DNA from: Terriglobia bacterium
GTDB taxonomy: Bacteria > Acidobacteriota > Terriglobia > Terriglobales > Acidobacteriaceae
DNA length: 64,000 nt
Assembly (NCBI GenBank): GCA_020072645.1
Contig: JAIQGK010000012.1
Span: forward strand, 620,001 to 684,000
Reading direction: 5' to 3'
This document shows, piece after piece, positions 29,835 to 49,056 of this stretch (position 1 is its first letter; every line of letters begins with the position of its first letter). A model generated the notes under the pieces. That model did not search any database, was not told the DNA's origin, and saw only the letters and a list, made by a program, of their open reading frames with translations. A program made the translations under genes and the position numbers.

Positions 29835-31520
29835 ATGCCATGGAAAACGAGCAGTGTGATGGAAGAGAAGCTGCGGTTTGTCTTTGAGTATGAACAGGGG
29901 CAGAGGTCGATGACGGAGCTGTGCCAACGCTATGAGATCGCGCGGGAGACCGGGTATGTGTGGATCCGCCGGTATCGCGAGCGAGGAATCGAGGGGTTGG
30001 TAGAACGAAGTCGGGCATCCTTGCGGCATGGGAATCAGACACCAGCCGAGATAGAGCGGATGGTTCTGGAACAGCGGCAAGCGCACATGCGCTGGGGGCC
30101 GCGTAAGTTAAAACGGATCCTGGAGCGGGATGAGCCCGGGCGAGTGTGGCCGGCGGCGAGCACCATCGGAGCGCTGTTGAAGCGGGAAGGTTTGGTGATA
30201 GGGCGGCGCAAGCGGCGGCGGACCGAGCCCTACAGTGAACCTCTGGGACATGCCGATGGACCGAACCGAGTGTGGTGCGCGGATTTCAAAGGCTGGTTTC
30301 GAACCGGAGATGGACGACGGATCGATCCGCTGACGATCACAGATGCTCACAGCCGGTATCTGCTGAAGTGCCAGGCAGTGGAGAAGACGGACACGGCGCG
30401 GGTGCAGGCGATCTTTGAAGCGGCGTTTCGCGAGTATGGACTGCCCCAGGCGATTCGTACTGATAATGGGGCACCGTTCGCTTCGCATGCGATCGCGGGA
30501 TTGTCACGGCTGGCGGTGTGGTGGATCAAGCTGGGGATTGTGCCGGAGCGGATCGAAGCCGGGCATCCGGAGCAGAACGGAAGACATGAGCGAATGCATC
30601 GCACGCTGAAGCAGGAAGTAGCCCAACCAGCGGCAGCGAACTGGAGAGAGCAGCAACGAGTGATGGAGAGATTCCGTCAGGAATATAACCAGGTGCGGCC
30701 GCACGAAGCGTTGGCCATGCAGACGCCAGCTGCGGTGTATGAGGCGTCGGGAAGAAGTTTTCCGGTACGGCTGCCGGAAGTGGAATACCCGGACGAGATG
30801 CTGGTACGTCAGATAAAACACCAAGGGCAGTTTCGTTGGAAGAAGCAGGATGTGTTTTTGAGCGAAGTTCTCTGGGGTGAGCCAATCGGGTTGTTACCGA
30901 CTGATGATCGCTGGTTCACCGTTTACTTTGCCCAAATACCCATTGCAAGATTCGACAGTAAGCAACTGCGAGTGACGCTGTTGCCCAAAGCAGGGGTTGA
31001 CTACAAGGCTGATGCAGGGAAAGGGGAAGCGTCCCCATCCCCTGCACCCCCATCCCCTCAACCAAGTGGACCAGAAAGTGTCAGCTATGTGCCCGGTCTA
31101 AACTGTCAGGGATCCGCCCGTCCGTTCAGCGCCTATCGCCGAAATCGGAAAGCGAAAACCCACCACGGAGGCGCAGAGACGCGGAGGAGCCCGAAATCGG
31201 AACAGGGAAGGATGGCTCCGCAACGGCTTGCGACTGCTTTACCATTGCGGACGCCCATCTGCTATCGTCACCGCCTTACCGCTTCAGTGCCTTCCTTATC
31301 TTTGCCAGATGGTGCCAGCTATGCCGCAGCGCATGGTCTTCAATCACGAACTGAGCCGTCATGGGCGCGCCAAAGCTCAACGAGAATGGCGCAGCCTGAT
31401 CGAGTTCAGCATCGGTCAAGGCGCGTACCGCGGCGGCCGCTTCACGGCTGTTTTTGCGCAGCAGTTCCAGCGTTGCGGCCTTGGTCGCGGACGCCTGGTC
31501 CTGAGCGTGCTTGGCATTGA
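29835..31520 (+). CDS. IS481-like transposase running past the right end of its element
   Basis: The 561-residue reading frame has an N-terminal helix-turn-helix (residues 20-70: [34 protein letters not shown]) and an integrase core with the DDE triad visible in [22 protein letters not shown] and [16 protein letters not shown]. The conserved part ends near residue 392. The frame then crosses the right inverted repeat without a stop and continues 400 bp beyond the element, ending in the convergent methyltransferase gene. The C-terminal 160 residues are therefore not expected to be transposase. The start at 29835 follows AAGAAAGAG; an ATG at 29859 is an alternative. Confidence 0.85.
31077..31125 (-). 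repeat. Right inverted repeat of the insertion sequence
   Basis: It has the same two-unit structure as the left end. A one-base deletion in the outer unit (CGGACGGGCG against CGGACCGGGCG) distinguishes it. The transposase reading frame passes through it. Confidence 0.75.
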
Positions 31521-32646
31521 TCTGTGCCACGGCATCCCAGCTAACGTCTGTAACGGCATTGCCACCGGCCACCGCACCCGCCACGTCAATCTCAATCGGG
31601 TACATGCTGGCAACATGGTTCACGATCACGCCAACGGAGCGATGGTCCGTGCTGGAGACCGGTAGATGCCACTCAGCTTCAGAGATTCCTTCAGCAAACG
31701 CGGCCAGTCCGGCAGCGCCTTGCTCAATGCGGTCAGCCAGCAGCGCAGCGCGACGGCTTGCCGGAGTCTCTTTCTTGAGCAAATGCGGCCCGGGAGCATC
31801 CTGAGCGCCGTTGCGAGTGGCAACAACCTCAAGGTATTCGGCGGCAACCAGCGTGGTGTTGCCGGGTGCGGCGTTGTGTTCCGCCCACAGGCGGATAAGT
31901 TCACTGCGCAGCACCTTCTGCCCGCTTGCGTCCAGCGATGCAAAGGCGCGCGTCATGGGGCCGTAATTGAGGCGGAAGAATTCCACCACCGCATCCGGCG
32001 GGAAGGGATATTCCAAGCGATACAAGCGCGGAGTGAGTTTCAGCGTGACGATCCCGTCGCTGAAGCGCTCACGCACCGTGGCTTCATCGCCCCACAGCGC
32101 GGGCGACGGCATGCCGGAAGGAGCAATGTGTCTGGCAATCGTCTTAAACATCTGGCCGACGAAACCGCCGGGCGTCCAGTTGGCCATGGCGATTGTGCCG
32201 CCGGGCCGGCAAACGCGCGTCAGTTCAGCCGCAACCAGTTCCGGACGCGGCGCAAACATCGCCCCGAACATGCTGGTCACCGCGTCAAACTGTCCATCTT
32301 CATACGGCAGCGCTTCGGCATCGCCTTCTTCAAAGTTGATGTCCAGTCCTTCAGCGGCGGCGCGCGTCCGCGCTTTCTCAAGCCAGTTGATTGCGATGTC
32401 GCAGCCAGTCACTTTCGCGCCCGCCCGGGCCGCAATCAGGGCAAGCTGTCCGGCGCCGCATCCCACGTCCAACAGCCGCGCTCTCGGCTTGATTCCAAGC
32501 CGCTGGTAAAATACCTCCGCGTCCTTTTCCATGTAGCGCGCAAAAACGTCGTAATCCCCGGTCATCCATGTCGCTTTCAGGCGGGTTTTAAGTTGATCAA
32601 AATCGGCATTCGTCAATATTTCTTTTGCAACAGCATTCGTCGTCAT
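31276..32646 (-). CDS. Fusion of SAM-dependent methyltransferase and DinB-like domain
   Basis: The 456-residue protein has a class I methyltransferase domain (residues 40-200) with the SAM motif [12 protein letters not shown] (58-69), GCDI and [13 protein letters not shown]. It is followed from about 300 by a four-helix DinB-type domain with histidines in VNHVASM and [14 protein letters not shown] that could bind metal. The ATG lies in the divergent promoter facing the AraC regulator at 32782, with 135 bp between. The methylated substrate is unknown. The 3' end is overlapped on the other strand by read-through of the transposase frame. Confidence 0.88.
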
Positions 32647-33828: not shown

Positions 33829-34629
33829 TCACAAAGATGACTCACGGTGAAGATGCTGAGACGCTGAAAAAGGCAGCGCAGCCTGTCTCGCATTTGGCAG
33901 CGGCTTGCCGACCGGAATCGGTTCTTCACGGTACAGGCGTACGGTGTTGCGCACAGCGGAAATCACCATAATCAGCAACATGCCGGAGATGCCAAGCGTT
34001 CCAGCAACATCGAAGAACCGGTGAGCGCGCCCAAACAGATGCACGGTGGACTTCCACAGCACCGCGAGGTTGCCAATGGAGAGCAGGATGCGCAACTCCG
34101 TTGGTCCCATTTTGTAGTACGAAATTTTGAAGTCGCCCAGAGCATACGTGGCCAGATAAATTTCAACTGACAACATCAGATAAGCAATGAGCAAGCCAAG
34201 CGCAACCGCAGGCGACATGTATCCGGAAAGCGCCAAGCCGCCAAGAAGAAAGAACGCGCTGAAGGCGTCCACAATGTGGTCAACGTAAAAGCCGTAGCGC
34301 GGACGCGAGTGATCACGAAAGCGGGCCAGCGTTCCGTCCAGCGAGTCGCCCAGCCAGTTGAGCGCCAGGCAAAGCACAACCACGACCAGACCAAAGCGAT
34401 TGCTGGCCGACCACCAGTAAGCCGCGCCGGCCGCCGCCATGGAAAGCAAGCCGAGCAGCGTTAGATGGTCAGAGTTGATCCAGGCCGGCGTTCTGGTCGC
34501 CAGCCAGATCAGGGTGCGTTTTTCCGCGTTAGCCAGGAAGCTTTGCTGTATCCGCTTGGCTTCCCGGAAGTTGGTCTTGCTTGAGCCAGGGTTAGGAATG
34601 GTTTGGGTAGATGGCCGAGTGTTGAGCAT
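33829..34629 (-). CDS. CDP-alcohol phosphatidyltransferase family membrane protein
   Basis: The 266-residue integral membrane protein carries the family motif DSLDGTLAR, then G-FYV-D-HIV-D, which coordinates two metals and the CDP-alcohol; nine residues separate AR and G where eight is the usual count. Five or six hydrophobic helices surround it. It transfers an alcohol phosphate such as inositol or glycerol phosphate onto a CDP-linked lipid, or the reverse; the product cannot be told. The ATG at 34629 follows GGAGGTGA; an upstream in-frame start at 34791 adds 54 unsupported residues. Confidence 0.88.
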   Translation of the reverse strand: MLNTRPSTQTIPNPGSSKTNFREAKRIQQSFLANAEKRTLIWLATRTPAWINSDHLTLLGLLSMAAAGAAYWWSASNRFGLVVVVLCLALNWLGDSLDGTLARFRDHSRPRYGFYVDHIVDAFSAFFLLGGLALSGYMSPAVALGLLIAYLMLSVEIYLATYALGDFKISYYKMGPTELRILLSIGNLAVLWKSTVHLFGRAHRFFDVAGTLGISGMLLIMVISAVRNTVRLYREEPIPVGKPLPNARQAALPFSASQHLHRESSL

Positions 34630-34981
34630 TTTTTGAATCACCTCCGATTCACGATTCCGCTTGCGACCCGCGGTGAGGGATGGAAGAAAGCTTGGAAGGA
34701 GCTGCGCTTTCCGCCAGTTCCCGCCGCAGTCGCTTGCTATGACGGCACTTTGCTCCCGGACGAAGTCAACCGGCAATGCACGCCGACTCATCCGCGGGTA
34801 AAACCGAGATCAACAGCTAAGCGCCAGAAAAGGCGATATTTAGGCGAGATCGAGAAGGACATAAACATAGCCGGATGCGGTCAACGCACCCAATCCCGCC
34901 CGCAGTCAGGGTGCGCAGCATGGTACGGGGCTGAAGAATATCCTTGAGCAGCGGGGACGGCAGGCAGCAGAATGAGAGACC
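34630..34981. other. Intergenic region, 352 bp, divergent promoters
   Basis: It separates the CDP-alcohol transferase (minus) from the VOC protein (plus). The strong ribosome-binding site of the former is at its left edge. I see no conserved coding sequence or structured RNA. Confidence 0.45.
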
Positions 34982-35371
34982 GTGTTCACTTATAAAGGCG
35001 TCGACCACATTGCGCTGGTAACCAAGCGGCTGGCCGCCATGAAGACCTTTTATATAGAGAAGCTGGGAATGACCCTGGAGCAAGAGAGCAAATCAAAGGC
35101 CGGTTACAACATTGTTACGCTCCGGGCCGGGGAGTCGTTGATCGATTTGTTTGAAGCTTCGCCCACAAACCCTGCGCCCACGGCCAACCTGAGCGAAGAG
35201 CATATTTGTCTATCTGCCACAGGATCAAGCATTTACGACGTGATTGCCACCTTCAAGCGCAAAGGGATGGATCCCTCGCAGGCAGAGGTTAACACGGGGG
35301 CGAAAGGCAAAGGGCTCTCCATCTGGGTACGCGACCCGGATGGACACAAGATCGAAATCAAGATGGATTGA
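34982..35371 (+). CDS. VOC (glyoxalase/bleomycin resistance) family protein
   Basis: The 129-residue protein is one vicinal-oxygen-chelate unit: DHIALVTKRLAAMKTFYIEKLGM at residues 8-30, and GLSIWVRDPDGHKIEIKMD at the C-terminus with the metal-ligand His and Glu in the usual places. Proteins of this size dimerise to form the active site; the reaction (lyase, isomerase or dioxygenase) cannot be assigned. It starts with GTG at 34982, with only a weak ribosome-binding site. Confidence 0.9.
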   Translation: MFTYKGVDHIALVTKRLAAMKTFYIEKLGMTLEQESKSKAGYNIVTLRAGESLIDLFEASPTNPAPTANLSEEHICLSATGSSIYDVIATFKRKGMDPSQAEVNTGAKGKGLSIWVRDPDGHKIEIKMD

Positions 35372-35480
35372 TGAGACAACCTGAAGCAAAAAGCACTGGC
35401 ATGGGCCTTAGTTTTGCACTAGAATTCGTGCACGCTGGCGATTGGGGTGGGGCGAGAAAAGCCTTTAAACATCGGGATCC

Positions 35481-35509
35481 GGACATGCACTTGTGCTTGG
35501 TACATGTCC
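35481..35509. promoter_or_regulatory. Inverted repeat upstream of the UDP-glucose dehydrogenase-like gene
   Basis: GGACATGCAC and GTACATGTCC form 10-bp arms with one mismatch around a 9-base spacer. It lies 150 bp before the start of the next gene and could be an operator or an RNA hairpin. Confidence 0.45.
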
Positions 35510-35659
35510 TAATACGATCTTGCGGTGTACTAAGTAAAAGCTTCTAATCACAACTGCTTGAGTTAGTCAGCACGGCAACATAAAAATTAAAGACCAGTTG
35601 GCGAACCCTCAATAACTTCCCCCGAGTCGCCGATGCTCTAGTTTTCTCCAGGAGAGTTT

Positions 35660-36928
35660 ATGCAGATCGGTGTCTACGGTTGTGGGTATCTGGGAACTGT
35701 AGTGGCTGCGTGTCTTGCCGATTTTGGCGTGCCCGTGACAGCGTATGGCAGCGACTCTGTGAATACCACGTTGCTCGCCAGCGGCATTTTGCCCTTCCAT
35801 GAAAAGAATTTAAGTGACATTGTCCGCCGCGGCGTCCGCTCCGGGCGGCTTATGTATTCCACGCACTTGCAGTCCATGGTGCAGCGCGCAGAAATCATCT
35901 ACCTGGCTGAAGACGCCAACCGTGACATGGAAGCCATCTCCATGGAGATTGCCAATTATTGCGATCACGGTCAGATTCTGGTCCTGGTCACCCCTGTACC
36001 AGTGGGCACGGCGCACAGGATTGAAGAACGCCTCAAGGCCTCCGGAAAGAACATCACGGTAGTGTCCCATCCGCTGTTCCTCTCTGAAGGCTGCGCGGTG
36101 GAAGACTTCAACTGGCCGGACAGAATCGTTCTGGGAACCACGTCAAACGCTGCGGTGACTTCCCTGAAAGCTCTTTACCGACCGCTGGTGATGCGCGGCG
36201 TTCCGGTGATTGTTACCAGCCACCAGACAGCAGAGCTGGTGCGTGAAGCTTCAACGGCATTCCTGGCGACGAAAGTTTCCTTTATCAATGAGCTGTCCAG
36301 CTTGTGCGAACGCATCAATGCCGACGCTGTTGATCTGTCTCTTGCGCTCGGCCTCGATAAGCGGATCGCGCCGCGGTCGTTGCAACCGGGATCGCTGGGC
36401 GGAAGCTTTACTGAATCAGACATGGACTCGCTGGCCAATCTTGCCGCCGGTTCCGGCGTGTCACTCAAGATTCTGAGCGCCGCGCGTGAAGTGAATCAGG
36501 AATTTTGCGGACGCATCATGCGGAAAATCAATAGTGCCATGGGCTCGGTTGAGGGCAAGCAAGTCGGACTGCTGGGACTGGCATTCAAGCCGAATACGAA
36601 CTCCGTTGTCAGCTCCGGCTCCATTCGCCTGGCGCGCAGCCTCATGGAAAGCGGCGCGCACGTGAAAGCCTATGATCCCATCGCAATGCCGGACGCGCAG
36701 CAGGAGCTCAGCGGCAACGTGCGCTATTGTGATTCAGCGTACTCCGTAGCAGAAGGCGCGGACGCGCTGGTTCTGGGCACGGGCTGGCCGGAATTCCGCA
36801 CGCTCGATTTTGACCGCATTCGCCGCATCATCCGCAACCCTGTTGTGGTGGATACCAAAAACCTGCTCGACGGTCCACGCATGAAAGCCCTGGGCTTTGA
36901 GTATATGGGCGTCGGACGCGGCGCATAG
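35660..36928 (+). CDS. UDP-glucose/GDP-mannose dehydrogenase homologue lacking the catalytic cysteine
   Basis: The 422-residue protein has the family's N-terminal NAD-binding domain (GVYGCGYLGTVVAA, 4-17), a central dimer domain with ATKVSFINELSSLCE (203-217) and FLSEGCAVEDF (140-150), and a C-terminal UDP-sugar domain (VGLLGLAFKPNT). In true enzymes the active-site loop is GGSCFPKD; here it is GGSFTESD (247-254), so the catalytic Cys is Phe250 and the conserved Lys is Ser253. Residues 83-90 (AEDANRDM) also depart from the usual GTP-x4-G motif. It is probably a pseudoenzyme or has changed chemistry. No other polysaccharide gene surrounds it. A terminator follows. Confidence 0.9.
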   Translation: MQIGVYGCGYLGTVVAACLADFGVPVTAYGSDSVNTTLLASGILPFHEKNLSDIVRRGVRSGRLMYSTHLQSMVQRAEIIYLAEDANRDMEAISMEIANYCDHGQILVLVTPVPVGTAHRIEERLKASGKNITVVSHPLFLSEGCAVEDFNWPDRIVLGTTSNAAVTSLKALYRPLVMRGVPVIVTSHQTAELVREASTAFLATKVSFINELSSLCERINADAVDLSLALGLDKRIAPRSLQPGSLGGSFTESDMDSLANLAAGSGVSLKILSAAREVNQEFCGRIMRKINSAMGSVEGKQVGLLGLAFKPNTNSVVSSGSIRLARSLMESGAHVKAYDPIAMPDAQQELSGNVRYCDSAYSVAEGADALVLGTGWPEFRTLDFDRIRRIIRNPVVVDTKNLLDGPRMKALGFEYMGVGRGA

Positions 36929-36952
36929 TTTTCCCTGAATCATCAAAAGTGA

Positions 36953-36981
36953 AGCCCCTGCTTGTATAGCAGGGGCTTTTT
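36953..36981. terminator. Rho-independent terminator
   Basis: AGCCCCTGC-ttgtata-GCAGGGGCT followed by TTTT on the plus strand ends the UDP-glucose dehydrogenase-like unit. The 9-bp stem is perfect. The minus-strand side is flanked by only a few As, so it works best for the plus strand. Confidence 0.85.
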
Positions 36982-36997
36982 GTATTATGAGGGTCTT

Positions 36998-38563
36998 TCA
37001 GTTTTTGCCGCGCAAGGTGATCGTAACTGCCAGGTCTTGTTCGACCGTTTCACCGCTATCGAAATCAAACGCAGTTGCGGTGGCAGATATATCCGCTTTG
37101 CCGCCGGTGAACAACGCCACGGACCGTCCATGGAAGAGCGTGGCCACCGTTTGGATGGTGGCATTCCATGGCGTTATTCCATCACAGGGAACAAATACCG
37201 AGAAGAACCCGGTGATGGGAGTATTGCCGTGGGTTTGTTTCAGTTGCCCGGAGAGGGTCACAAACGCCTGCTTCGTACAGGAAACAGAGCCGGTAATGGT
37301 GGCTGTTCCGGTGGTAGGGTCAACTGTTCCAAACTTTGTAACGCTGGGCGTAATCGCAAGCGGTGGAAGAGAGGGAACCAAGTTGAATACCAGATCGGCC
37401 GGAGACACGGTAGAGAATGAGGATACCTCAAAGTAATAGGTGACTCCGGCAACCGCATCGAACCGCACAGTTGACTGCAAAGTTCCATTGGAATCATCAT
37501 CGCAGCCAATCTGGTTCAAAGCCCCGCGAGTGCCGGTATAAACCCCTAAAGTTGTATCGTAGTCGCTGCCAATTGTATTAGCTTCCAGTCGCATGTTCTG
37601 CGTTGGAGTAAAGGCGAACCATACTGTCTGGTTTCTGTTGACGCAGAACGGATCATCGGGAGCCACTGTGGCATTGCTGACGTCCTGGCTTGTGGTAAAG
37701 GGGACCGAGGGGGCCACCGTCGCATGATTGAAATCGTCATTCGGCGGGGTCTGCGGCTGCGGAGCAATCACGTCAATCTCGATGGGAGCAAAAGCGGAAT
37801 TGCCGGCCGAATCGGTTGCAGTGAAGTTAAAAAAAGTCTTTGTGCCAAAGAATGTAATGTTAGGCGTCCATGTGAAGGTTCCCGTGTTATCGCCATTGTC
37901 AACAAAGGATCCCAAGGTACCTCCGGCGGGCACCGGAGCACTCAGGGCAACATGTCCGCCCTGGGCGTCGATGGCTGAAACTGTGAACGTCAGGGTCTGG
38001 CCCACCGGGACAACCTGATGCGGCGGCGAAGAGATGTAAATGGGTTCAACCGCACCGAAACGAATCTCGCCGCTCAATGCCGGAGCCTCGCCGTCGCACT
38101 GCTGCACAAAAATCACATCCAGGGAGGCGACGCTGCCGTCCGGGTTGAAACTGAGCTGCCGGAACGTGAAGTTACCGGTGACAGCATCGCAGGTCCGGCC
38201 GTCGCCGGAGATCAGCATTCCCGGCAGGAAACTAGGTTGGGTGGGCCAGGTCTGTGCTCCGAAGTATTGTTCAAAAGCAGCGAGTGGCGCGCCGCAGCAC
38301 GCGGCAAATTCGAGGTCCCAGAACACGCCCGGCTGGCCCACAAAATGCACGCCTATTACGTTGTCATTTGCCGATGCTTGCACGCTAAAGGTCCCGTCAG
38401 CAGGCGTAAAGAGCGCATTTTGGCCGTCTCCAACGAAGTCGCCCGGATCACTGAAAAGGCTGAGCGAGGTGACTTGCGCGTGGGCCATGGTTGCAAGCAG
38501 CAAAAAGAAAGCAATCCATAGAATGCTGCATTTTCTAGTCAGCGTTTCCTTCCAGTCTTTCAA
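36998..38563 (-). CDS. Secreted multidomain protein with PPC-like domain (paralogue 1)
   Basis: The 521-residue protein has a long N-region and signal peptide ending near AMAHAQ (residues 14-30). It contains a domain found only in this pair here (SDPGDFVGDGQ, FTPADGTFS), an Ig-like putative cadherin-type domain (FTVSAIDAQGGHVALSAP, DNTGTFTWTP) and a bacterial pre-peptidase C-terminal domain (DDPFCVNRNQTVWFAFTP, YDTTLGVYTGTRG). A further Ig-like part follows. The start is a TTG at 38563 with AAGGAG 6 bp upstream; no ATG is available. It is probably a surface or extracellular protein. The paralogue lies at 50120. Confidence 0.82.
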   Translation of the reverse strand: MKDWKETLTRKCSILWIAFFLLLATMAHAQVTSLSLFSDPGDFVGDGQNALFTPADGTFSVQASANDNVIGVHFVGQPGVFWDLEFAACCGAPLAAFEQYFGAQTWPTQPSFLPGMLISGDGRTCDAVTGNFTFRQLSFNPDGSVASLDVIFVQQCDGEAPALSGEIRFGAVEPIYISSPPHQVVPVGQTLTFTVSAIDAQGGHVALSAPVPAGGTLGSFVDNGDNTGTFTWTPNITFFGTKTFFNFTATDSAGNSAFAPIEIDVIAPQPQTPPNDDFNHATVAPSVPFTTSQDVSNATVAPDDPFCVNRNQTVWFAFTPTQNMRLEANTIGSDYDTTLGVYTGTRGALNQIGCDDDSNGTLQSTVRFDAVAGVTYYFEVSSFSTVSPADLVFNLVPSLPPLAITPSVTKFGTVDPTTGTATITGSVSCTKQAFVTLSGQLKQTHGNTPITGFFSVFVPCDGITPWNATIQTVATLFHGRSVALFTGGKADISATATAFDFDSGETVEQDLAVTITLRGKN

Positions 38564-44823: not shown

Positions 44824-47800
44824 TTGAATACCCGCAGAGCACAACCCGATTCTCCTCCGGTAAGCGAAGTCCCCGCATTTCCAACGGACGGTCAAATTCC
44901 CGAGCATGTCTTTTCCGGTGGCGGTGAGCTGGGCGAGAGAATTCGCTCATTTGACTGGTCAAAAACTCCCATGGGGCCAATTTCCACTTGGCCGCAGAGC
45001 TTAAAGACCGCCGTGCGCATCATGATCACTTCCCGCTACGCAATGTGGCTGGGCTGGGGGCCTGATCTCACCTTTTTTTATAACGATGCTTATGCTCACA
45101 TGTCACTGGGAAAGAAACACCCCTGGGCGCTAGGCAGGCGGGCCCGCGAAGTTTGGGCTGAGATCTGGGCCGACCTTAGTCCACGAATCCGCAGCGTACT
45201 TGAAGTTGGGGAGGCTACCTGGGATGAGGCCCTTCTTCTGTTCCTGGAGCGCAGCGGCTATTCGGAAGAGACCTATCATACTTTCTCCTATAGCCCTTTG
45301 ACTGCGGATGACGGCAAGGTCAACGGTCTTTTTTGCGTGGTAACGGAAGAAACTGAGCGCGTGATCGGTGAGCGCCAGCTTGGATTGCTGCGTCATCTGG
45401 CGGCTGGTCTTAGTTCCAAGAACACTGAAGAGGATGTCTGCATTGCCATTCCGGCCAGCCTCAAAACCAATCCACAAGATCTTCCGGTCACGCTCACGTA
45501 TCTTTTTGAAAAGGGTGAGACGCAGGCGCGGCTGGCCTGTGAAACCGGAATCGAACGCGGGCATCCGGCGGCCCCGCAAAGGATCGAAGTCGGAGCGGAA
45601 GATGAAGTTTGGCCGATTCGTGACCTTCTGAACACGAAGGGCTCGCTGTTTGTAGAGCACCTCACTGAACGCTTTGGTTCGATGCCGACCGGCGCATGGG
45701 ACCGGCCACCGACGCGCGCAATCCTTGTCCCCATTACAGGCCAGGGGCAGGAGCGCCCCGCTGGAGTGTTTATCACGGCGCTGAATCCTTACCGGCAGCT
45801 CAACGCCGGTTATTCGGGATTCATTGATCTCGTCGCTGGACAGATTGCCGCGGGAATTGCGAATGCCCGTGCTTATGAAGGTGAGCGGCATCGCGCGGAA
45901 GAACTGGCGGCGCTCGATCGGGCAAAGACAACTTTCTTCAGCAACGTGAGCCATGAGTTCCGCACGCCTTTGACCCTGATGCTGGGGCCAACCGAAGATG
46001 CGTTGGCAAATCCGGAAAAGGCGCTGCGTGGCAGGGACCTGGAAACTGTCCACCGCAATGAGCTGCGATTGCTGAAGCTGGTGAATACCCTGCTGGATTT
46101 TTCCCGGCTGGAAGCGGGCCGGGTTACCGCAAGCTACCAGCCAACAGACCTGTGCGCTTACACATTGGAGCTGGCGAGCATCTTCCGCTCGGCCATTGAA
46201 AAAGCCGGGCTGAATTACGTTGTGGAATGCGCCCCGTTGCCGCAGCCGGTCTATATCGACCGTGAGATGTGGGAAAAGATCGTGCTTAACCTGATCTCCA
46301 ATGCCTTGAAGTCAACATTTCATGGCTACATTGAACTCGAGCTGGCAAACAAGGCGGACCATGTTGAATTCTCCGTGCGCGATACGGGAACGGGCATTCC
46401 AGAGCGCGAGCTGCCTCATTTGTTTGAAAGGTTTCGCCGCGTGGAGCACGCGCGCCGACGTACGCATGAAGGCAGCGGAATCGGGCTGGCGCTTGTGAGT
46501 GAACTGCTGGCCATGCATGGCGGCAAGATCGCGGTGCAGAGCCACGTGGGCAAAGGAACAACATTTACGGTAACGCTGCCGTATGGAAGCCAGCATCTTC
46601 CCAGGGAGCGCGTCAGGCCAGAGGCGGAGCAGATAGTTCTCGGAACGGCGCGTAAAGCCTTTGTGCAGGAAGCCTTGAGCTGGCTGCCGGGACAAACGGT
46701 AGACGACAAGGCAAGCCGGGAAGACTTGGAAGCTGCCGATGCGTTGAGTGCGCCGCTGTTGGTAACCTCCAGCAAGCCGCGCGTGCTGCTGGCGGATGAC
46801 AATCGCGACATGCGCGAATACGTCCGGCGGTTGCTCAGCTCGCGGTTTGAAGTCACCACGGCGGAAAATGGCAGGCAGGCGCTGGAGAAAGCCAGTCAGC
46901 AGTTGCCTGCGCTGGTCCTGAGCGACGTGATGATGCCGGAAATGGACGGACTGCAACTCCTGGCTGCGCTGCGGGAGAATCCTGCCACTTCTTCCGTTCC
47001 GGTGGTGCTGCTTTCTGCGCGGGCCGGCGAGGAATCGCTGATTGAAGGCATGATGTCCGGCGCGGACGATTACGTGGTAAAGCCGTTTACGGCGCGTGAA
47101 CTGCTGGCGCGCGTGGAAGCCCACATCAAGATCGCGAGCTTCCGCCGCGAAGCGCTGGAAAGAGAATCGCGCCTGCAAAGCGAGTTGCGCGAGTCTGAGC
47201 GCGAACAGCAGCAGTTGCTGGATGTGGTGAACCAGTCCACCGATTTTATCGGCCTGGCCGACATGCAAGGGCGTGTGCTTTACGTAAATAAAAGTGCCCG
47301 CGCCATGATGGGGCTGGCCGAAACGCAGGATGTCCGCCAGCTCAGGATCAAGGATTTCTTTTTCTCCAAAGACGTTCCCTTCCTTGAAGACGAGGTAATT
47401 TCCACGGTGGTACGGGAAGGCCGTTGGCAGGGCGAAGTAAATTTCCGCCATTTCAAAACCGGCGCGAGCATTCCGGTGGACTATCACGTTTTTCCCGTCA
47501 ATGATCCCCAGACCGGCGAAATGGCTGGCCTGGCAACGGTGACGCGCGACATGCGCGAGCGCAAGACAGCCGAAGCGGCGTTGCGCCAGAGCGAAGAGCA
47601 GTATCGCGTGCTGGCGGAGCTGAGCCCACAGGGACTTTGGACAGCCGATCGCGACGGACGCGTGGTTTATGCGAACCAGAGATTTCTGGAATATGTGGGC
47701 AAAGACGTTCTTCCCCGGGACGGCGCCGAATATCTCGATCTCTTCTATGAAGAGGACAGGGAACGAGTCTTGAACGTCTGGACACATAGCATCAAGACCG

Positions 47801-49056
47801 GCGAAGACTACATGATCGACGCGCGGCTGATTCGCGGAAGCGATAGTGCTGCGCGCTGGTGGCATTTCCGGGCTCTTCCTTTGCGCAATGAAACCGGCGC
47901 GATTCAGCAATGGCTGGGCGTAGCCAGTGACGTGCATGAGAGCCGCATGGCAGACCAGGCGGTGCGCTCAGAGCGCGCACGGTTGGTGGAAATGTTCCGC
48001 CAGGCGCCCGCATTTATGGCGATGTTGCGCGGCCCCGAGCACGTTTTTGAAAGGACCAACCGGCAGTATCAGGAATTGATTGGCAATCGCGACTTGCTGG
48101 GTAAGCCTCTGCGCGAGGCATTGCCTGAAGCTGCGGAACAAGGCTTCATCGATATTCTTGACAAGGTTTATCAAACTGGTGAGCCTTTCGTGGCCAATGG
48201 TCTCAGCATCAGTATTGCGCGAGTTCCAGGACAGCCAAGGGAAGAGCGCTATCTGGATTTCGTGTACCAGCCGATGCGGGAAACCGACGATAAAATTTCC
48301 GGTGTCCTGGTTCTGGGCGTGGATGTCACAGATCGCAAACGTGCCCAGGACGCACTGTTGCAGAGCGAAAAGCTGGCTGCCGTAGGACGCCTTTCGGCCT
48401 CGATCGCGCATGAAATTAATAATCCGCTGGAAGCCGTAACCAATCTTCTTTACCTCATCAATGAGGAAAAAGATCTTCCTGAGCAGGCCCGCAGCTTTAC
48501 TCATCTGGCGCAACAGGAACTGGCGCGCGTGAGCCAGATCGCCACGCAGACTCTGCGCTTCTATCGCCAGCCTACCGCGCGGACCGCCGTGCGCGTTTCT
48601 GAACAGCTTGATTCGGTGCTCAAGCTTTATCAAGGCCGACTCGCCTCGGCCGGCGTGGAGATCGTCCGTGACTACCGTGTCGCCGCGCCGCTGCTCGCCT
48701 TTGAAGGCGAACTGCGCCAGGTATTTACCAACCTTGTCGGCAATGCGCTGGACGCTTCCCGCAACGGCGGCAAATTGACGCTGCGCACGCGCGAAGCCAC
48801 AGACTGGCGCACCGGACGCAAAGGCATTCGCGTCACCGTGGCCGACTGCGGCCATGGCATGTCCAAAGAAACGTTGCACCGCATCTTTGAGCCATTCTTT
48901 TCCACCAAAGGCATTACCGGCACAGGACTGGGCTTGTGGGTAACGCTGGGCATCATCCAAAAGCATGAAGGCCGGGTAAAAGTCCGCAGCAGCGAATCAA
49001 CAGAGCATCACGGAACAATCTTCAGTGTGTTCATCCCGCACAGGGAAAAAGACTAA
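44824..49056 (+). CDS. Hybrid sensor histidine kinase/response regulator with two kinase modules
   Basis: The 1410-residue protein, without transmembrane segments, has a PAS-like N-terminus (SFDWSKTPMGPISTWPQSLK), a GAF-like domain (about 190-355), then HisKA with His377 (SNVSHEFRTPLTLM) and an HATPase domain (FSVRDTGTGIPERELPHLFERF). A receiver follows with phosphorylated Asp701 (LSDVMMPEMDG), then three PAS domains (about 800, 910 and 1060). A second HisKA with His1196 (SIAHEINNPLE) and HATPase (DCGHGMSKETLHRIFEPFFSTKG) ends it. It is a soluble phosphorelay that can transmit to itself and to another regulator; no separate response regulator is adjacent. The start is a TTG at 44824, inferred. 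Confidence 0.93.
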   Translation: MNTRRAQPDSPPVSEVPAFPTDGQIPEHVFSGGGELGERIRSFDWSKTPMGPISTWPQSLKTAVRIMITSRYAMWLGWGPDLTFFYNDAYAHMSLGKKHPWALGRRAREVWAEIWADLSPRIRSVLEVGEATWDEALLLFLERSGYSEETYHTFSYSPLTADDGKVNGLFCVVTEETERVIGERQLGLLRHLAAGLSSKNTEEDVCIAIPASLKTNPQDLPVTLTYLFEKGETQARLACETGIERGHPAAPQRIEVGAEDEVWPIRDLLNTKGSLFVEHLTERFGSMPTGAWDRPPTRAILVPITGQGQERPAGVFITALNPYRQLNAGYSGFIDLVAGQIAAGIANARAYEGERHRAEELAALDRAKTTFFSNVSHEFRTPLTLMLGPTEDALANPEKALRGRDLETVHRNELRLLKLVNTLLDFSRLEAGRVTASYQPTDLCAYTLELASIFRSAIEKAGLNYVVECAPLPQPVYIDREMWEKIVLNLISNALKSTFHGYIELELANKADHVEFSVRDTGTGIPERELPHLFERFRRVEHARRRTHEGSGIGLALVSELLAMHGGKIAVQSHVGKGTTFTVTLPYGSQHLPRERVRPEAEQIVLGTARKAFVQEALSWLPGQTVDDKASREDLEAADALSAPLLVTSSKPRVLLADDNRDMREYVRRLLSSRFEVTTAENGRQALEKASQQLPALVLSDVMMPEMDGLQLLAALRENPATSSVPVVLLSARAGEESLIEGMMSGADDYVVKPFTARELLARVEAHIKIASFRREALERESRLQSELRESEREQQQLLDVVNQSTDFIGLADMQGRVLYVNKSARAMMGLAETQDVRQLRIKDFFFSKDVPFLEDEVISTVVREGRWQGEVNFRHFKTGASIPVDYHVFPVNDPQTGEMAGLATVTRDMRERKTAEAALRQSEEQYRVLAELSPQGLWTADRDGRVVYANQRFLEYVGKDVLPRDGAEYLDLFYEEDRERVLNVWTHSIKTGEDYMIDARLIRGSDSAARWWHFRALPLRNETGAIQQWLGVASDVHESRMADQAVRSERARLVEMFRQAPAFMAMLRGPEHVFERTNRQYQELIGNRDLLGKPLREALPEAAEQGFIDILDKVYQTGEPFVANGLSISIARVPGQPREERYLDFVYQPMRETDDKISGVLVLGVDVTDRKRAQDALLQSEKLAAVGRLSASIAHEINNPLEAVTNLLYLINEEKDLPEQARSFTHLAQQELARVSQIATQTLRFYRQPTARTAVRVSEQLDSVLKLYQGRLASAGVEIVRDYRVAAPLLAFEGELRQVFTNLVGNALDASRNGGKLTLRTREATDWRTGRKGIRVTVADCGHGMSKETLHRIFEPFFSTKGITGTGLGLWVTLGIIQKHEGRVKVRSSESTEHHGTIFSVFIPHREKD

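Follow-up and report, generated by a model that had tools for sequence, protein, structure and literature searches.

A UGDH-family gene with an altered catalytic loop

The DNA analyzed in this study, hereafter called the window, is a stretch of 64,000 nucleotides from a Terriglobia bacterium of the family Acidobacteriaceae (assembly GCA_020072645.1, contig JAIQGK010000012.1, forward-strand positions 620,001 to 684,000). Its forward strand carries, at window positions 35660-36928, an uninterrupted open reading frame (ORF) of 422 amino acids that runs from ATG to TAG, and that we refer to as the pseudo-UGDH gene. The product belongs to the uridine diphosphate (UDP)-glucose/GDP-mannose dehydrogenase superfamily as judged by its domains (Pfam PF03721, PF00984 and PF03720, matched in this order), by its fold and by TIGR03026 (290.9 bits versus a cut-off of 189.8). 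Its best solved relative in a sequence search is the bacterial UDP-glucose 6-dehydrogenase (UGDH) UgdG (4a7p). The same genome (6.4 Mb, 42 contigs) encodes two weaker homologues and three additional UGDHs (L002-L004, 37-39% identity), all three of which carry the loop sequence GGSCFPKD that is typical of this family.

In the window protein the corresponding loop reads GGSFTESD (residues 247-254; forward-strand positions 36398-36421), with Phe250 (codon TTT, 36407-36409) in place of Cys, Ser253 in place of Lys, and Asp254 retained. A first-pass annotation, made from the DNA letters, had reported these substitutions in an undisturbed reading frame, and both points hold in the sequence and in the alignment described below.

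Relatives were collected by scanning clade-specific peptides against a genome collection representing 84,980 species, from which the best 80 of 127 relatives, all acidobacterial by title, were taken; further clade members came from a search of 61 genomes. The alignment comprises 105 clade loci that reduce to 95 distinct proteins of near-constant length (in some cases the same genome had been retrieved twice), along with eight canonical UGDH controls, which are the remaining close UGDHs fetched. Distant homologues L005 and L006 were excluded. Partial proteins L029 and L031 were kept in the residue counts and omitted from a conservation test of changed positions (93 rows). Where 94 is given as a denominator, 94 of the 95 distinct rows cover that column (at the deletion site described below, L029 starts later).

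Residues were compared with 18 positions that Freas et al. (PMC4794789) describe as invariant in 229 nucleotide-sugar dehydrogenases, using SpUDPGDH numbering. These positions were mapped through shared motifs and spacing against the eight controls, with the SpUDPGDH row itself absent from the alignment. In this manner E201, K204, N208 and N219 correspond to window residues E192, R195, T199 and N210, with a constant offset of 9. The spacing of four between Lys204 and Asn208 is the same as that given for hUGDH Lys220 and Asn224 in PMC3184952.

Seven of the 18 invariants, equivalent to Thr83, Ser117, Thr118, Glu141, Lys204, Asn208 and Cys260, are replaced in the clade, and nearly all of these are, by alignment, catalytic or nicotinamide-site positions. 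The catalytic cysteine of an active UGDH (SpUDPGDH Cys260) is absent from the clade, with Phe250 present in 94/94 covered distinct rows and Cys present in all eight controls. Two findings that might have undermined the first-pass annotation were another cysteine at the active site and close relatives that retain GGSCFPKD. All 95 rows (one lacking coverage) are free of Cys for 8 columns on either side of position 250, and the clade relatives do not carry GGSCFPKD.

Lys204 and Asn208, both expected in an active enzyme, are likewise missing. By alignment their places are taken by Arg195 and Thr199 (36242-36256, forward strand), the former being Arg in 94 of 95 rows and His in one, and the latter Thr in 95/95. 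The lysine previously reported as a retained K204 is K205, which is another conserved residue. Invariant Glu141 aligns with Leu139 (36074-36076, forward strand), a position occupied by Met, Val, Leu or Ile in 94/95 rows and by Thr in one. Invariant Ser117-Thr118 aligns with Thr111-Pro112 (35990-35995, forward strand), where Pro112 is found in 94/94 covered rows and residue 111 is Thr in 92 and Ser in two.

On the side that binds nicotinamide adenine dinucleotide (NAD), a deletion of nine residues next to the Thr83 position and an adjoining Asp85 (35912-35926, forward strand, by alignment) are each present in 94/94 covered rows. The near-invariant NAD contacts Asp29 and Arg327 are lost in 81/94 and 94/94 rows, respectively. 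All four NAD contacts of an active UGDH (Asp29, Thr83, Thr118 and Arg327) are replaced in the window protein, where Asp29 has become Gly30, Thr118 has become Pro112 and Arg327 has become Val317. The earlier statement that the NAD motif is kept therefore stands for the GxGxxG glycines, which are present in the window protein (Gly12 in 76/94 clade rows), but fails for Asp29, Thr118, Arg327 and the deleted region near Thr83.

At the other 11 invariant positions the original residue is still the most frequent one: Gly7, Gly9, Gly12, Pro140, Glu201, Asn219, Gly257, Gly258, Asp264, Asn287 and Lys320. Both the diphosphate lysine and the loop glycines expected of an active UGDH are present in the clade. 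Lys310 (36587-36589, forward strand), which aligns with the UDP diphosphate residue Lys320, is Lys in 94/94 covered rows, and glycines 257 and 258 are Gly in 93/94 and 94/94 rows. The intersubunit Arg244 position remains basic (Lys in 81/95, Arg in 14/95). An additional cysteine, Cys145 (36092-36094, forward strand, by alignment), lies away from the catalytic position in a loop following an NPEFL-like motif. It is invariant in the clade (95/95), with Thr, Ser or Ala at this place in the controls. None of the eight controls carries Asp85, Arg195, Thr199 or Cys145.

An AlphaFold2 model of the window protein, prepared with 60 aligned sequences, has a predicted local distance difference test (pLDDT) score of 88.6 and a predicted template modeling score of 0.82. 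Its best solved structural match is again 4a7p (Z 48.9, root-mean-square deviation 1.4 over 415 residues), and the long central helix is present (188-218), in keeping with the first-pass view of a well-kept fold. Confidence is weak at residues 231-240 (mean pLDDT 64) and 241-250 (mean 52). For the canonical control L030, modeled with the same 60 sequences, the pLDDT score is 95.6, no residue falls below 70, and the matching-loop block means are 89-94. Since residues 265-280 of hUGDH wrap UDP-glucose (PMC3184952), the weak loop in the model suggests that the substrate loop of pseudo-UGDH is probably less ordered than the canonical one, although its training may have made AlphaFold2 more familiar with canonical UGDHs.

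Compared with UgdG (4a7p), BceC (2y0c-e) and acidobacterial L030, pseudo-UGDH thus has the same three Pfam domains and fold, and resembles these enzymes in its Rossmann glycines, diphosphate lysine, loop glycines and long central helix. It differs in that the Cys, Lys, Asn, Glu, Thr/Ser and NAD-contact residues are replaced, the nine-residue segment on the NAD side is deleted, and the model shows a poorly ordered substrate loop.

Descent and distribution of the clade

In a tree of 50 rows, the 25 that belong to the clade group together to the exclusion of the others, with support of 100/100. Of the canonical rows, L030 and L121 lie closest to them, a placement with modest support (92/85). Homologues that share the altered loop therefore constitute a clade with conserved substitutions, which the first-pass annotation had proposed as the sign of a functional change. 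Nei-Gojobori ratios of nonsynonymous to synonymous substitution (dN/dS) range from 0.018 to 0.094 across 19 close-relative pairs; two pairs of distant relatives give 0.14-0.19. By this sequence-based measure, the clade is under strong purifying selection.

A strict DNA marker for the peptide EDFNWPDR was used to survey the clade. At least 129 of 398 genomes of the family are positive, this being a lower bound because two genomes (G012 and G019) carry the gene without the marker. A search of 151 genomes of the class, 29 of them from the window's family, found no match in the 122 that represent other families, and a search of 119 genomes of the phylum, 11 of them from the window's family, found none in the 108 that represent other families. 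Several well-sampled genera within the family also gave no match. By this strict marker, the clade is confined to one acidobacterial family among the sampled genomes.

Fifteen further UGDH-family homologues were included in the tree, and the loop cysteine is present in 13 of them. It is absent from L129 (G012:C42:62760-64110), whose loop reads AGGTLARD, and from L130 (G052:C50:5700-6980), whose loop reads SGGNLERD. These two proteins resemble pseudo-UGDH in having a GG loop without Cys, but differ in that the equivalents of Lys204 and Asn208 are present. L129 scores above the TIGR03026 cut-off. Both are flagged as long branches and fall outside the window clade, and loss of the cysteine is therefore not unique to that clade.

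The 2H phosphoesterase gene and other flanking features

Outside the window's genus, a gene on the same strand encoding a separate protein of family PF13563 (2'-5' RNA ligase superfamily 2, a 2H phosphoesterase) lies upstream of pseudo-UGDH in 64 of 69 loci, and is adjacent in most relatives. Presence was established by tblastn, with the family assigned from one scanned member, for loci with at least 800 bases of upstream sequence; five loci with less were excluded from the count. The two genes are usually separated by about 140-330 bases, and by 0.5-4.6 kb in six cases. The loci lacking this neighbor are L052, L061, L064, L097 and L098. Two HxT/S motifs, matched by a loose pattern, are present in all 81 tblastn matches of at least 150 residues. 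Among the other family genomes searched, the PF13563 gene is found in 7/7 that carry the clade gene (G012, G013, G014, G015, G017, G019 and G022), and in only one (G021) of seven family genomes without it. Distant PF13563 matches (28-30%) occur in four genomes from another family of the order.

In G014 (L137:3552-8675), the 2H gene and pseudo-UGDH are separated by about 4.6 kb containing an ORF, the beginning of which we take to resemble a serine/threonine protein kinase. This arrangement suggests that the gene pair has been interrupted by an insertion.

The window gene looks monocistronic. Upstream of it, at positions 35500-35548 of the forward strand, is a conserved element, GTACATGT, followed by TTGCGG, 17 bases and TCTAAT, an arrangement that is promoter-like by eye and is unlisted by a promoter scan. 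Of the 78 loci for which at least 250 upstream bases were available, 59 have GTACAT no more than 330 bases upstream; in about 8 of the 59 the motif is nearer the gene and in a different context. The form GTACATGT(C/A)C is common to several genera, and a perfect palindrome, GTACATGTAC, is present in some relatives. A genome-wide regulon for this motif was considered and rejected, as the exact match recovers only its own site and there are three one-mismatch sites versus one for the backward control.

Downstream, a terminator-like stem-loop of 12 pairs, seven of them G-C, is located at 36951-36979 on the forward strand and is also readable on the reverse strand. The region contains five terminator-like sites versus 2.1 in shuffled sequences. 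An Rfam scan of 34500-37500 gave no match. Farther away, a 561-amino-acid ORF (29835-31520), presumably an insertion sequence (IS)-type transposase, is overlapped by an opposite-strand ORF (31276-32646) with methyltransferase and DinB domains. A 1410-amino-acid ORF at 44824-49056 is, we assume, a hybrid sensor histidine kinase with PAS-like repeats.

Possible roles of a probably non-oxidizing UGDH fold

As far as alignment and modeling indicate, the UGDH fold is kept in a single clade under strong purifying selection, in which other, largely fixed residues have taken the place of the catalytic and nicotinamide-site ones. An enzyme fold whose catalytic residues are lost clade-wide under such selection is what is meant by a pseudoenzyme, and monophyly, fixed substitutions and purifying selection together give good support to this term, which the first-pass annotation had offered as one of two possibilities. 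From the residues lost, we infer that pseudo-UGDH no longer oxidizes UDP-glucose or other nucleoside diphosphate (NDP)-sugars. With moderate confidence, we favor the broader proposal that the gene encodes a non-oxidizing pseudoenzyme that binds a UDP-sugar or nucleotide, serves independently of UGDH as a scaffold or as a binding protein responding to its ligand, and is mostly paired with the 2H gene outside the window's genus.

According to this proposal, the protein would fold as a UGDH-type protomer and would probably still bind a UDP-sugar or similar nucleotide on its C-terminal half-site. Such binding is expected because Lys310 and Gly247 match the residues that, according to PMC4794789, hold the diphosphate (Lys320) and the ribose of uridine monophosphate (Gly257). 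Phe250 and the hydrophobic residue at position 139 would fill the former sugar and catalytic site. The protein might then function in ligand-responsive binding or as a scaffold, would require no UGDH and, for most relatives that belong to other genera, would probably be used jointly with the 2H phosphoesterase encoded upstream. A role as a sugar-nucleotide sensor, as suggested in the first-pass annotation, would be compatible with the retention of the diphosphate lysine and loop glycines.

Several observations weigh against this proposal. The 2H gene is missing from the window's own genus (0/9 genomes searched and 0/7 loci, including the window). Some features remain partly enzyme-like, in that the general base Asp264 (window Asp254) is Asp in 88/94 rows and Tyr10 is retained in 87/94. 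Asp29 is kept in 13/94 rows, and a Thr is aligned with Thr83, beside the deletion, in 16/94. Synonymous divergence in the close-relative pairs is 0.8-2.0, near saturation. Taken together, the 36 altered positions show no greater conservation than the rest of the non-retained ones (p about 0.13), and so the argument is carried by individual fixed residues. Finally, the fixed replacements Asp85, Pro112, Thr199 and Phe250, together with Arg195 in 94/95 rows, would equally fit a new chemistry.

This last point leads to the main rival, in which the old pocket of a repurposed enzyme runs another reaction by using Asp85, Arg195, Thr199 and perhaps Cys145. That these residues are nearly or fully invariant in the clade and absent from the controls is consistent with such an enzyme, as is the 2H phosphoesterase-family gene found upstream in most relatives outside the genus. 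However, residue fixation would fit a binding site too, and the weak order of the substrate loop in the model argues against a catalytic pocket. We consider this explanation unlikely.

An inactive regulatory subunit that hetero-oligomerizes with an active cellular UGDH would be consistent with the three canonical UGDHs of the window genome, the long central helix of the model and the basic residue at the intersubunit position. When a canonical UGDH query was applied to 39 of the 129 marker-positive genomes, each at least 95% complete, four of these (G029, G091, G122 and G150; drafts that are 98-100% complete) matched only pseudo-UGDH at E values up to 1e-30. G029 has a weaker homologue (25% identity, E 1.9e-9). 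These genomes weaken the case for an obligate UGDH subunit, although a gene may have been missed in drafts and homologues beyond this threshold were left unexamined, and we regard such a role as doubtful. The PF13563 gene adjoins pseudo-UGDH in G029, G091 and G122, and is absent from the 14.4-kb contig of G150.

The other possibility raised in the first-pass annotation was a one-step (two-electron) NDP-sugar dehydrogenase that halts at the C6 aldehyde. In the second oxidation the lost cysteine serves as the covalent catalyst (PMC4794789), which would agree with a halted reaction, and the GxGxxG motif, Tyr10 and the general base Asp254 are retained in most rows. Nevertheless, such an enzyme is quite improbable because residues serving the first oxidation (Lys204, Asn208 and Thr118, the last now Pro) and the NAD contacts (Thr83 with its adjacent deletion, Arg327 and, in most rows, Asp29) are also replaced. 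A decaying pseudogene or a sequencing or assembly error would explain the missing catalytic residues, but carries negligible probability and is ruled out by the recurrence of the substitutions at 105 loci (95 distinct proteins) from many genomes, a near-constant protein length and dN/dS values of 0.02-0.09.

A further reading can be advanced only tentatively. In one acidobacterial lineage the UGDH scaffold may have been remodeled to give a novel protein that handles nucleotides and has a fixed pocket of its own (Asp85, Pro112, Cys145, Arg195, Thr199 and Phe250); in most relatives this protein could sense or process an undescribed nucleotide or nucleotide-sugar derivative together with the 2H phosphoesterase. 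Pseudoenzymes are already known as a kind. A search of the open-access literature, a scope that takes in few subscription papers, found no description of a UGDH or nucleotide-sugar pseudoenzyme, which is no proof that there is none.

Because proteins of this type match TIGR03026 above its cut-off, automatic annotation would label them dehydrogenases. With seven of the 18 positions listed as invariant in PMC4794789 replaced in most or all of its members, the clade, which is nevertheless under strong purifying selection, provides a natural test of a non-catalytic UGDH fold, and the adjoining 2H phosphoesterase gene offers a concrete lead to the role that pseudo-UGDH may play.
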